NCBI GenBank assembly: GCA_029572955.1
Contig: JAKPQE010000113.1
Location: forward strand, 1 to 64,000
Length of the DNA stretch: 64,000 nucleotides
Reading direction: 5' to 3'
DNA from: Pseudomonadota bacterium
GTDB lineage: Bacteria; Pseudomonadota; Alphaproteobacteria; Rhizobiales; JAKPQE01
Shown here: in pieces, positions 10,432 to 60,495 of the stretch
Layout: every line of letters starts with the position of its first letter
Position numbering within the stretch: the stretch's first letter is position 1
Translations under genes and position numbers: made by a program
The notes under the pieces: generated by a model
The model's database searches: none
The model's input: the letters and a program-made list of their open reading frames with translations, nothing else
What the model was told of the DNA's origin: nothing

Positions 10432-10509
10432 TGGTCGGAGCGGCGGGATTCGAACCCACGACCCCTTGACCCCCAGTCAAGTGCGCTACCAGGCTGCGCT
10501 ACGCTCCGA
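10432..10509 (-). tRNA. tRNA-Pro, anticodon GGG, CCA encoded
   Basis: On the minus strand a full cloverleaf can be drawn: acceptor stem CGGAGCG/CGCTCCG, anticodon stem CTTGA/TCAAG around the loop CTGGGGG (anticodon GGG), T-loop GTTCGAATC and encoded CCA. It decodes CCC and CCU. The 5' half, from position 1 into the anticodon stem-loop, is identical to the right-hand prophage end, so this gene is the integration target. The 5' half and everything upstream of it at this location are of phage origin. Confidence 0.96.
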
Positions 10510-10510
10510 C
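10469..10510. repeat. attL: 42-bp core shared with the right prophage end
   Basis: These 42 bases are identical to 60416-60457. The repeat covers the 5' half of tRNA-Pro on the minus strand and one base beyond the acceptor stem. Outside the repeat the two ends differ at once (g versus t on the left, g versus a on the right). Strand exchange must occur inside it, probably around the anticodon loop as for most tRNA-directed tyrosine integrases. Confidence 0.95.
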
Positions 10511-10531
10511 GCCCCATAAGGGGCAGTTTTT
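10511..10531 (+). terminator. Terminator at the phage side of attL
   Basis: A GCCCC-ATAA-GGGGC hairpin is followed by AGTTTTT. In the prophage it stops rightward transcripts that run through hicBA and the antisense of the tRNA. In the circular phage it lies just beyond attP, downstream of the integrase gene, so it would end the int transcript only in the excised form. On the other strand the same hairpin sits in the leader of tRNA-Pro. Confidence 0.7.
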
Positions 10532-10559
10532 CCTAGTCTTTGGCGGCATGGAAGGCAAG
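10531..10559 (-). promoter_or_regulatory. Candidate phage-borne promoter for tRNA-Pro
   Basis: On the minus strand CTTGCC (plus 10554-10559) and CTAGGA (plus 10531-10536) are separated by 17 bases, and the tRNA starts 21 bases beyond. The spacing and -35 match the alphaproteobacterial housekeeping pattern, but the -10 is weak. Because the prophage has displaced the native upstream DNA, some sequence here must drive the tRNA. Confidence 0.4.
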
Positions 10560-10922
10560 CGGAAAAAGCCGGCGACAGAACGCAACGGGAAAATATCGGC
10601 ATCTAAATGCACGGAGTGGTGCAAAAGTCCCACCAAAATTCCCACCGGTTTGACGCCACCTTGCCGCAAAGCTATCGCCTCGTTCACCCGCCGCGACTAT
10701 GTGACCGATGGCACGTTCATCGACTATCACCGCGCGTTCCAACCGGTCAAAAGGAACGGGGAAAACGCGAAGCGTCAGCCTCGGGTTATCAACACGCTGC
10801 TGCGCGTCTACGACGACGGAAGCCGGCGCTTCTACAAAAACGGCGTGCTTGCCTACGAGCGTCTGACGGATGCTCGCCGCGATGCCGAGCTCGACCACGC
10901 TGAAGCGATCGGAACCCGCTGA
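10548..10922 (+). CDS. Hypothetical protein at the left prophage end
   Basis: 124 aa, basic N-terminus, no family recognised. The middle (FTRRDYVTDGTFIDYHRAFQ, VINTLLRVYDDGSRRFYKNG) looks like a genuine folded protein with aromatic residues, unlike antisense frames nearby. It directly precedes the HTH protein gene, which begins right after its TGA, so they form a two-gene unit read toward the lysis genes on the opposite strand. The ATG at 10548 overlaps the candidate tRNA promoter; a later internal start is possible. Confidence 0.55.
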   Translation: MEGKRKKPATERNGKISASKCTEWCKSPTKIPTGLTPPCRKAIASFTRRDYVTDGTFIDYHRAFQPVKRNGENAKRQPRVINTLLRVYDDGSRRFYKNGVLAYERLTDARRDAELDHAEAIGTR

Positions 10923-11330
10923 ATGGCCACCACCTTTTCTCTGCTCTGCCAACGCTGCGGCCTCTCAAATCGGGAGGCCGCGGACTATCTCTCCGTTCGG
11001 CTGGATACCGCAAAGTCATGGTCCGCCGGACGGAATCCGGCGCCAGTGGGCGCCATCGGCGAATTGCGGCAACTCTACGCCAGGATCGAGCGCGCGGCGG
11101 CGGGCGCGGTTGTCGAGATCGATTGTCAGACCATCAAGCACGGCGCGCCGGATTCCGTCGAACTCGGGCTCTCCTCCGACGACCACGAGGCGCAATCGAT
11201 CGGCTGGCCTTGTGTCGGCGCCCACGCCGCCGTGCTTGGCTTGGTCGCGGCGCGAGTCGATGTTCCGCTCGCCATCGTTCCGCGCGGATCCACTATCGCC
11301 ACGGCTGGTGCGTCCGACGCCAACGACTAG
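10923..11330 (+). CDS. Small HTH DNA-binding protein
   Basis: 135 aa. The N-terminal 60 residues (LCQRCGLSNREAADYLSVRLDTAKSWSAGRNPAP) form a helix-turn-helix of the Cro/YdiL-like type, in which the second helix recognises DNA. The C-terminal half (GAHAAVLGLVAARVDVPLAIVPRG) has no assignment. The gene converges on the phosphoesterase gene with a 4-bp overlap of the 3' ends. It lies next to attL, opposite in direction to the late operon, a typical place for lysogenic-state genes. Confidence 0.65.
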   Translation: MATTFSLLCQRCGLSNREAADYLSVRLDTAKSWSAGRNPAPVGAIGELRQLYARIERAAAGAVVEIDCQTIKHGAPDSVELGLSSDDHEAQSIGWPCVGAHAAVLGLVAARVDVPLAIVPRGSTIATAGASDAND

Positions 11331-59148: not shown

Positions 59149-59445
59149 ATGCGCCTATTGACGCCCGCCGAGGTTGCCGAAATGCTCAGCGTCTCGGACA
59201 AGACGCTGAAGGGGCTCGATATCAAGTATGTCGACCTCGGGCGGGGCAAGCGCGTCATCCGCCGCTATGACATGGCCGACGTCGAGGCATGGGTGAGGGA
59301 GGCGAAATGTCTGTCTACCGAAAAGAAAATCGCCAGACCTACACCTATGATTTCCGCCACGCCGGTCACAGATATTGTGGAAATACGGGCGCGACGTCGC
59401 GCCGCGAAGCAGAGCGCGTCGAGCGCGACCTCAAAGCGAGGGTAA
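59149..59445 (+). CDS. xis: Excisionase-like HTH protein
   Basis: 98 aa from ATG 59149. RLLTPAEVAEMLSVSDKTLKG and VIRRYDMADVEAWVRE form a MerR/AlpA-type winged HTH as in excisionases. The last 46 codons overlap the start of the integrase gene in another frame, as in lambda xis-int. It would bend attR/attL DNA and direct the integrase to excision. Confidence 0.82.
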   Translation: MRLLTPAEVAEMLSVSDKTLKGLDIKYVDLGRGKRVIRRYDMADVEAWVREAKCLSTEKKIARPTPMISATPVTDIVEIRARRRAAKQSASSATSKRG

Positions 59446-60374
59446 AACTCGCCGCCAGGCCTCCTTCCACGTCCATGACAGTGCAAGCGGCATTTGCCCG
59501 CTACTTCACGGAGGTCGGCAGCCACCACGTCAACATCGACACGACGCTTGCCGACCTCGAGCGCCTGCAGCGCCTCATAGGCGCCGGCACGCCGCTCGCC
59601 GATATCGACGATGTGCGCCTCGCCGCCATAATCGCCCGGCGCCGCGGCGATGGCGTCAAGCCGGCAACTGTCAACCGATCCGTGACAGTTCGCCTCCGCG
59701 CCGTCATGACCCACGCCCGCGTGGTCTGGCGCCTCGACCTGCCGCGCATCGCCTGGAAGCGTCACATACTGAAGGAGCCGCAGGAGAGGGTGCGCGAACT
59801 CACCGTCGACGAAGAGGCGGCGCTCTTCGCCGCCCTGCCGGACGGCTACGCCGAGCTCGTGCGCTTCGCGCTCCTCTCCGGCTGCCGCATGCAGGAATGC
59901 CTCGATCTCACATGGCGCGCCATCGACTGGCACGGCGGCTTTTTCACGGTCGTCGGCAAGGGACGCAAGCGCCGCGAGATCCCCCTGTCATCGGCGATCG
60001 AAGCGCTGCTCTGGCCGCTGCCGCGCGCCCACGAGCGCGTCTTCACCCACGTCCTGCGCCGGCCGGCGGCGGGCGGGGCCCGGCGCGGCGAACGCGCGCC
60101 GATCGAGCGCGAGGGGTTGAAGAGCCTCTTCGACCGCGCGGCGCGCCGAGCCGGGCTCGTCGACTTCCGGTTCCACGACTTGCGCCATACATTCGCGACG
60201 CGCCTCTTGCGCGCCACCGGCGACCTCCGGACGGCGGCAGACATCCTCGGTCACGCCGACCTCGAGACGACGAAGAAATATGCCCACGCCACCCGCGCCG
60301 ACATGCGCCGCCGCATGGAGGCGATGGAAAGTCACACCGCAACTACCACCACACGCCGCCGCGACGTGTCATAA
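59307..60374 (+). CDS. int: Tyrosine recombinase, phage integrase
   Basis: 355 aa from ATG 59307. A short N-terminal arm-binding part (VYRKENRQTYTYDFRHAGHRY), a SAM-like core-binding domain (about 57-145) and the catalytic domain with Arg194 (SGCRMQE), Lys219, His290-x-x-Arg293 (HDLRHTFATR), His316 (LGHADLE) and Tyr325 (KKYAHA) are all present. It recombines attP with the tRNA-Pro gene. The stop is 41 bases before attR. No terminator lies between int and attR; it is found beyond attL instead. Confidence 0.95.
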   Translation: MSVYRKENRQTYTYDFRHAGHRYCGNTGATSRREAERVERDLKARVKLAARPPSTSMTVQAAFARYFTEVGSHHVNIDTTLADLERLQRLIGAGTPLADIDDVRLAAIIARRRGDGVKPATVNRSVTVRLRAVMTHARVVWRLDLPRIAWKRHILKEPQERVRELTVDEEAALFAALPDGYAELVRFALLSGCRMQECLDLTWRAIDWHGGFFTVVGKGRKRREIPLSSAIEALLWPLPRAHERVFTHVLRRPAAGGARRGERAPIEREGLKSLFDRAARRAGLVDFRFHDLRHTFATRLLRATGDLRTAADILGHADLETTKKYAHATRADMRRRMEAMESHTATTTTRRRDVS

Positions 60375-60415
60375 CAGATTGTTTTCATTAGGAAAACACG
60401 TCGAGCGGCGCCATT

Positions 60416-60457
60416 ACCCCCAGTCAAGTGCGCTACCAGGCTGCGCTACGCTCCGAC
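60416..60457. repeat. attR: 42-bp core, 5' half of tRNA-Pro
   Basis: Identical to 10469-10510. Only the tRNA 5' half is present, so no tRNA is made here. A short inverted repeat GTTTTC-ATTAG-GAAAAC at 60381-60397 lies just inside the phage and may be an integrase or excisionase arm site. Confidence 0.95.
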
Positions 60458-60466
60458 AGGGCGACT

Positions 60467-60495
60467 AGGTAGCGCCTCCCCGGCGGCGGCGCAAG
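60467..60495 (-). promoter_or_regulatory. Stranded native promoter of tRNA-Pro
   Basis: On the minus strand CTTGCG (plus 60490-60495) and CTACCT (plus 60467-60472) have a 17-bp spacer, and the tRNA 5' end would start 10 bases later. This is the ancestral upstream region of tRNA-Pro, now separated from the tRNA body by the prophage. Transcripts from it enter attR and run antisense to int. Confidence 0.55.

Follow-up and report, generated by a model that had tools for sequence, protein, structure and literature searches.

The DNA analysed here (hereafter the window) comprises 64,000 nucleotides of contig JAKPQE010000113.1 from an alphaproteobacterium of the order Rhizobiales, and it holds a prophage inserted in the gene for tRNA-Pro(GGG) (Table 1). 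The junctions are marked by a 42-nt core that occurs twice in the window, the sequences diverging immediately beyond both of its edges. At the left attachment junction (attL), which is distal to the integrase gene (int), the tRNA is intact, its 3' half being host DNA and its 5' half and upstream DNA being phage DNA; at the right junction (attR) the displaced 5' half lies beside int, whose frame is intact and whose stop codon falls 41 nt short of the core. An earlier note on this DNA had placed phage DNA at the head of an intact tRNA at attL, as the exact core and the mapping of the junctions now bear out. It had also equated the core with the 5' half of the tRNA; the repeat is indeed exact over 42 nt, but it spans tRNA positions -2 to 40 and includes the anticodon loop, which points to a crossover probably within the loop rather than in the 5' half. 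Through integration the tRNA has been restored at the junction away from int, now headed by phage DNA, while the host upstream region and the discarded 5' half remain beside int. The layout is that of a tDNA island (an intact tRNA at one end, at the other a fragment of like orientation, and the integrase gene between them) of the 5'-fragment mode, in that the displaced piece is the 5' part and the region upstream of the tRNA comes from the element. The conventional 3'-half mode, in which the tRNA retains its host promoter, does not describe the locus, the native flank being found at attR and not at attL. The catalytic residues R200, H296, R299, H322 and Y331 of the integrase are invariant in a 15-row alignment, as expected of a tyrosine recombinase. 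Taken together with the comparisons below, these sequences make it likely that a myovirus-like phage recombined into the anticodon loop of tRNA-Pro(GGG) through a phage attachment site (attP) that carries the 5' half of the tRNA and a portable promoter, and that this promoter now makes the cell's tRNA-Pro(GGG).

The host side of this reconstruction was compared with 16 relative loci, namely those in which tRNA-Pro(GGG) and the right flank are both present. The earlier note had set beforehand, as a possible refutation, an empty site in which the DNA right of attR is not directly upstream of the tRNA; in 12 of the 16 loci the flank does lie upstream, oriented as at attR, and in a genome of the same family (G001) it stands 84 nt from the tRNA, against 66 nt at attR. 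In one of the 12 fitting loci (L022), the left-flank stretch 7085-7194 sits 170 nt past the 3' end of the tRNA, and both flanks surround an uninterrupted gene; at another locus (L030) the left-flank O-antigen-ligase-like gene (5832-6959) sits 325 nt past the 3' end. The window has about 3.2 kb extra between stretch 7085-7194 and the tRNA, consisting of a chemoreceptor gene and a hicBA-like pair. This pair (9940-10355, + strand) lies directly 3' of the tRNA; its first gene encodes a DUF1902 protein and its second was named by eye, without a Pfam hit. Since no DNA match to the pair was found beside the tRNA in the relative loci compared, the 3' side of the tRNA may also have gained DNA.

Promoter-like sites are predicted upstream of both copies of the 5' half. 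The hexamers CTTGCC-N17-CTAGGA reported earlier on the phage side were confirmed in place; those of the stranded native site at attR are also where they had been described, the gap to the tRNA half being 11 nt and not 10. Each site is modest alone (dinucleotide-shuffle p of 0.033 for the phage side and 0.020 for the native site) and a plain sigma-70 scan, based on an Escherichia coli model, detected neither, so that the case for a promoter leans on related elements. A two-box matrix was trained on 24 native tRNA-Pro upstream regions only, seeded with a guessed consensus, CTTGAC/TATAAT, and it converged to CTTGCG and TATAAT with a spacer of 16-18 nt. Matrix sites at a shuffle p<=0.05 were present in 20 of 27 phage-side upstream regions (Fisher 6e-19), as compared with 1/27 on the reverse strand of the same regions (Fisher 0.79) and 1/20 in the outer flanks of 3'-half elements (Fisher 0.49). 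The training set itself passed in 21/24 cases, and the upstream regions treated as native at int-proximal junctions, which stood outside the training, in 12/17. The 27 phage-side regions comprise 11 int-distal junctions and 16 attP-like loci; among the other 5'-half loci, 17 were treated as native and 11 were omitted from this sorted test. Because the sorting into phage and host side was partly done by eye, all 5'-half loci were rerun unsorted over 75 nt of upstream sequence, and 28/40 passed (four more were too short). A plain CTTG..TA pattern was found in 17 of the 27 phage-side regions (shuffle mean 0.6) and in just 6 of the 24 native training regions (shuffles 0.3).

Phage origin is closed for eight of the 27 upstream regions. 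For the window and for L102, L103, L104 and L105 it is closed because a single contig holds, correctly oriented, both an intact tRNA and an int-side half, for L098 likewise if its contig is circular, and L118 and L120 (phage VSN-002) come from complete phage genomes; seven of the eight pass the matrix, L105 failing with p=0.096. When both junctions of an element were compared, the phage upstream region resembled that of the host in 5 of 11 pairs and had no detectable likeness to it in the other six, the window included, of which five pass on the phage side; five of the 11 pairs rely on an inferred int-distal tRNA, located on another contig or far away. In one genome (G322; L102 and L045) the two junctions share 60 identical nt upstream of the tRNA, and the repeat there takes in the promoter itself. 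Like and unlike pairs side by side suggest that the promoter was inherited with the half tRNA in some elements and is of other origin in others, and that the carried promoter apparently retains, for the most part, the form of a tRNA promoter whatever its source. Thus, the phage-borne promoter that the earlier note had predicted for the rebuilt tRNA finds support in the comparison across related elements, and we regard a promoter swap, as read from sequence, as well supported.

Several observations weigh against this reading. Synteny is not kept in 4 of the 16 relative loci. Assignment to the phage side was inferred for 19 of the 27 upstream regions, which are without a closed junction, either from an intact isoacceptor elsewhere in the genome or from arm-like repeats judged by eye with the promoters visible, and the 27 are not all independent. 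In VSN-002 the optimum of the matrix is ATTGCG-N16-CAGAAA and not the CTTGCC-N17-CTAAGG seen by eye. A second copy of tRNA-Pro(GGG) could have been missed, given that the genome is a draft of 182 contigs (98.7% complete) whose 42 tRNA genes include neither tRNA-Ile(GAU) nor tRNA-Ala(UGC). In addition, a 467-amino-acid (aa) frame with a helix-turn-helix (HTH) motif faces the tRNA from inside the phage, which makes read-through possible.

Some of these points would favour a different explanation, in which the promoter match in the window is due to chance, tRNA-Pro(GGG) has low expression or depends on read-through of phage transcription, and the UGG and CGG isoacceptors cover its codons. The window's own phage-side site reaches only p=0.033, seven of the 27 phage-side regions miss p<=0.05, the 467-aa frame lies on the minus strand with a third-position GC of 0.83, and the draft genome does hold one tRNA-Pro gene each for GGG, CGG and UGG. 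The group-wide excess of promoter-like sites, with its strand and polarity controls, speaks against chance, however, and the relief offered by the UGG isoacceptor may be small. The search for a second tRNA-Pro(GGG) that the earlier note had called for returned none in the draft, whose tRNA genes number 42. Nothing in this genome scored above the family cut-off for cmoB, which one of 14 control genomes passes, and the UGG tRNA may therefore lack the cmo5U modification. A UGG tRNA without cmo5U may read CCC and CCU poorly, and if that is the case here, both codons are likely read by tRNA-Pro(GGG). On balance we hold the chance explanation to be unlikely.

Alternatively, the swap could be regulatory, the phage tuning tRNA-Pro(GGG) for its own translation or for lysogeny. 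The phage and native promoters do differ, both in their sequence and in their distance from the tRNA, but their matrix scores are alike (9.44 for the phage site and 9.09 for the native one), and in 13 phage genes CCC and CCU account for 70 of 325 proline codons, as compared with 38 of 115 in five host-side frames, some of them doubtful. A link to phage proline codon use was accordingly rejected for want of enrichment, and we judge regulatory tuning to be improbable. A repeat arising by misassembly or homologous duplication rather than by integration is scarcely credible, for although the genome is a many-contig draft, int adjoins attR, phage genes occur throughout the interval, and many other assemblies, as well as two complete phages, show the same arrangement of junctions.

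The preferred reading, integration through an attP that brings its own tRNA promoter, gains its wider context from the relatives of the integrase. In a search of 397 genomes of the order, relatives (E<=1e-40) were present in 24, the window's own genome included, at 26 loci: int is followed by an antisense 5' half in 12 (window included), by a 3' half in sense in 11, by a whole tRNA in one and by neither in two. A wider set of 117 loci was assembled from these 26, three phages (of 196 phage records), eight named genomes (the nearest eight of 80 genome-contig loci, L124-L131) and 80 viral contigs. It holds 44 loci with a 5' half antisense, 21 with a 3' half in sense, six with a 3' half antisense, one with a 5' half in sense, eight with a whole tRNA, two with a middle part and 35 with none, 25 of the latter because the contig stops at int. 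In this set L062 is scored as whole despite its 5' half of tRNA-Pro, a neighbouring tRNA-Gln scoring higher, and L126 and L047 are one and the same genome. The 5'-half state is commoner than the 3'-half state in this integrase group. A further 84 loci, mostly more distant (72 genome-contig loci, two phages and 10 viral loci), have 51 whole tRNAs, 12 3' halves, three 5' halves and 18 without any. For the near group, in either main state, the element's tRNA half lies across the crossover from int, and the junction far from int is where an intact tRNA would be expected.

Polarity was traced on a tree of 63 of the 117 integrases, selected for more than 120 bits, at least 250 aa and a clear 5'-antisense or 3'-sense state (42 of the 44 and all 21, respectively). 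It requires eight polarity changes, bootstrap trees require 7-8, and at least six are forced by well-supported branches. A quicker tree of 66 rows, picked for a readable tRNA part and including three of other states, has the 5' mode in 42/66. The contrast is plainest in L048 and L049, which come from one bacterial family and both sit at tRNA-Pro(GGG): their int side is common (GAGCATGTC), and past it they run into the anticodon loop in opposite directions. All named hosts seen in the group are alphaproteobacteria, and on the tree the window integrase groups as sister to that of Rhizobium phage RHph_I3_18 (100/99). Rhizobiophage 16-3 reportedly has its bacterial attachment site (attB) in the anticodon arm of a proline tRNA, tRNA-Pro(CGG), of rhizobia. 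When the window's exact core was sought in viral contigs, the one match was L041 (6854-6895), where it follows a 399-aa integrase frame and the contig stops 42 nt beyond the tRNA half. This frame has no significant match to the window integrase (best E 4.9), and the same 5'-half layout at tRNA-Pro(GGG) thus seems to be present outside the group; another integrase group may likewise have acquired the 5' mode at this site. Elsewhere in the survey, a related integrase in L043 (G135) is followed in sense, 122 nt past its stop, by a whole tRNA-Pro(UGG) (1248-1324), which may be an element carrying a full tRNA or an altered junction. A survey of phage tRNA-Pro genes gave, among the records listed (60/212 and 40/1497), mostly whole tRNA genes of large phages.

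The earlier note had also proposed that the stranded native promoter fires antisense into int. The geometry is present: the stranded site points into the half tRNA and antisense into int, and among 43 loci the distance from half tRNA to int stop, measured to the edge of the local alignment, has a median of 23 nt and is <=40 nt in 40, with a terminator-like site in between in only two. A half tRNA so close to the int stop, and so rarely followed by a terminator, suggests that the stranded promoter would read antisense into int. In the attP of the free phages RHph_I3_18 and VSN-002, however, the phage promoter-like site occupies the same place and points in the same direction, and integration would swap the promoter facing int rather than create the antisense geometry. 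What the lysogen changes is therefore only the promoter. Between the phage -10 box and the tRNA lies a terminator-like hairpin; one such hairpin was found, against a shuffle mean of 0.9. The case for the hairpin as a general int terminator in attP is weak, terminator-like structures occurring in 4 of the 27 phage-side upstream regions (shuffle mean 1.0). On the circular phage genome the hairpin would lie downstream of int, immediately beyond the core; integration shifts it 50 kb away, a relocation reminiscent of the retroregulation of int.

The remaining features of the prophage and its surroundings are collected in Table 1. Repeats like the tandem 12-mers of the window were read by eye in related attP regions. 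Within the prophage, a 921-aa frame (48922-51687, +) has a phage-repressor-like HTH confined to residues ~690-895, its remainder being either a long N-terminal extension or the result of an overcalled start. A protein with a DnaA C-terminal DNA-binding domain (PF08299; 47146-48231, -) is a possible replication initiator, and two DNA methyltransferase genes adjoin one another (44243-47046, -). On the host side, genes of the fabH and plsX types follow beyond the merR-family gene (Pfam).

Table 1. Features of the tRNA-Pro(GGG) locus, the prophage and its right flank (positions in the window)
Feature	Position	Strand	Basis or remark
Intact tRNA-Pro(GGG) at attL (int-distal junction)	10432..10508	-	ARAGORN; Rfam RF00005, 63.4 bits
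attL copy of the 42-nt core	10469..10510	-	exactly identical to 60416-60457
Prophage body, ~49.9 kb, myovirus-like	10511..60415		PHROGs, 20 frames scanned
Hairpin GCCCC-ATAA-GGGGC, then AGTTTTT	10511..10524	+	terminator-like on int strand
Predicted phage-borne tRNA promoter	10531..10559	-	CTTGCC (10554-10559) N17 CTAGGA (10531-10536), 22 nt before tRNA
Tandem 12-mers AAAAGTCCCACC AAAATTCCCACC	10623..10646	+	putative integrase arm-type sites (name inferred)
467-aa frame at phage left end	11327-12730	-	Fis-type HTH near start
Baseplate	20231-21358 and 22408-23472		PHROGs
Tail sheath	27719-29197		PHROGs
Capsid	30995-32260		PHROGs
Portal	33785-35386		PHROGs
TerL	35388-37481		PHROGs
Primase	40494-43358		PHROGs
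Tyrosine integrase, 361 aa	59289..60374	+	PF00589, E=1.1e-29
attR copy of core, displaced 5' half of tRNA-Pro(GGG)	60416..60457	-	exact identity with attL core
Predicted stranded native tRNA promoter	60467..60495	-	CTTGCG (60490-60495) N17 CTACCT (60467-60472)
Host merR-family gene, directly upstream of original tRNA site	60517..61368	-	Pfam, synteny

We propose that a temperate myovirus-like phage would enter at the anticodon loop of tRNA-Pro(GGG) through its tyrosine recombinase, the phage attP bringing the 5' half of the tRNA together with a portable promoter of tRNA type (CTTGC-N17-nTAnnn), and that the 5' polarity would be viable on account of this carried promoter. The switch between tRNA halves may be permitted by the near-palindromic anticodon arm, and in flipped lineages the portable promoter could have been retained from a host tRNA or have evolved anew. 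A stronger version, in which the near-palindrome lets the group flip tRNA halves, 5' lineages must carry a promoter, and this promoter, or the host's own after integration, always faces the 3' end of int through the half tRNA and so acts as an antisense brake in both the free and the integrated state, appears doubtful to us. If the proposal holds, the group provides a case, one that can be counted, in which a mobile element furnishes the promoter for a host gene that may be essential; its polarity flips form a natural set in which to study how an integrase reverses its orientation on a symmetric site, and the phage attP segments are candidates for portable tRNA promoters. Site finders and annotators should accordingly heed 5' fragments and the replaced upstream region.

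In published work, rebuilt bacterial tRNA genes are described as using their original promoter with very few exceptions, and the use of the 5' half, with expression of the tRNA from the integrase promoter, is ascribed to archaeal integrases of the pTN3 type and said to be seldom found in bacteria (PMC8371274). As in the window, in the pTN3/TKV4 type attB is the 5' half of a tRNA (41 bp common in pTN3) and an intact tRNA is rebuilt (PMC5495485, PMC8371274), which in pTN3 is parted from its original promoter (PMC5495485). The pTN3-type attP lies inside int and the gene is split upon integration, whereas the window has an intact 361-aa frame that ends before the core and lies at the other end of the element; moreover, the archaeal tRNA is said to use the integrase promoter, while here a tRNA-type promoter-like site stands in attP. 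The 5'-fragment islands of the Islander collection share the tRNA, the displaced 5' fragment and the internal integrase, but they number 159/3919 (PMC4383910), about 4%, as opposed to the 5' share of the quick-tree rows, which were chosen for a readable tRNA part; the word promoter does not occur in the main text of that paper. A Fisher comparison of the group with Islander disregards relatedness and is given no weight here. In Sinorhizobium meliloti 9 of 88 prophages and islands match the 5' end of a tRNA, a count given without promoter analysis, the word promoter again being absent from the main text (PMC11476347). In the tRNA-dependent lysogeny of actinophages, phage DNA also supplies a tRNA function that integration would otherwise destroy, and the phage promoter was demonstrated by reporter; there the core measures ~10 bp and the tRNA is not restored, its function being complemented by a complete tRNA gene of the phage (PMC10865867), in contrast to the 42-nt core and rebuilt tRNA of the window, in which ARAGORN found no other tRNA. 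A mirror case is ICEKp1, where a host tRNA promoter drives int (PMC13023037). Among the matches listed in a literature search on bacterial promoter swaps at tRNA sites, none described a group with common 5' polarity, a carried promoter and repeated flips. Close counterparts are the complete genomes of Rhizobium phage RHph_I3_18 (MN988542) and Sphingopyxis phage VSN-002 (MZ127829), whose integrases are 51.5% and 36.4% identical to that of the window and whose attP likewise has int, then a tRNA-Pro 5' half with a promoter-like site behind it; they differ in being known here as free phage genomes, while the window holds an integrated prophage. What a review treats as an exception to promoter retention (PMC8371274) would thus be the commoner state in one integrase group, seen in two complete phage genomes.

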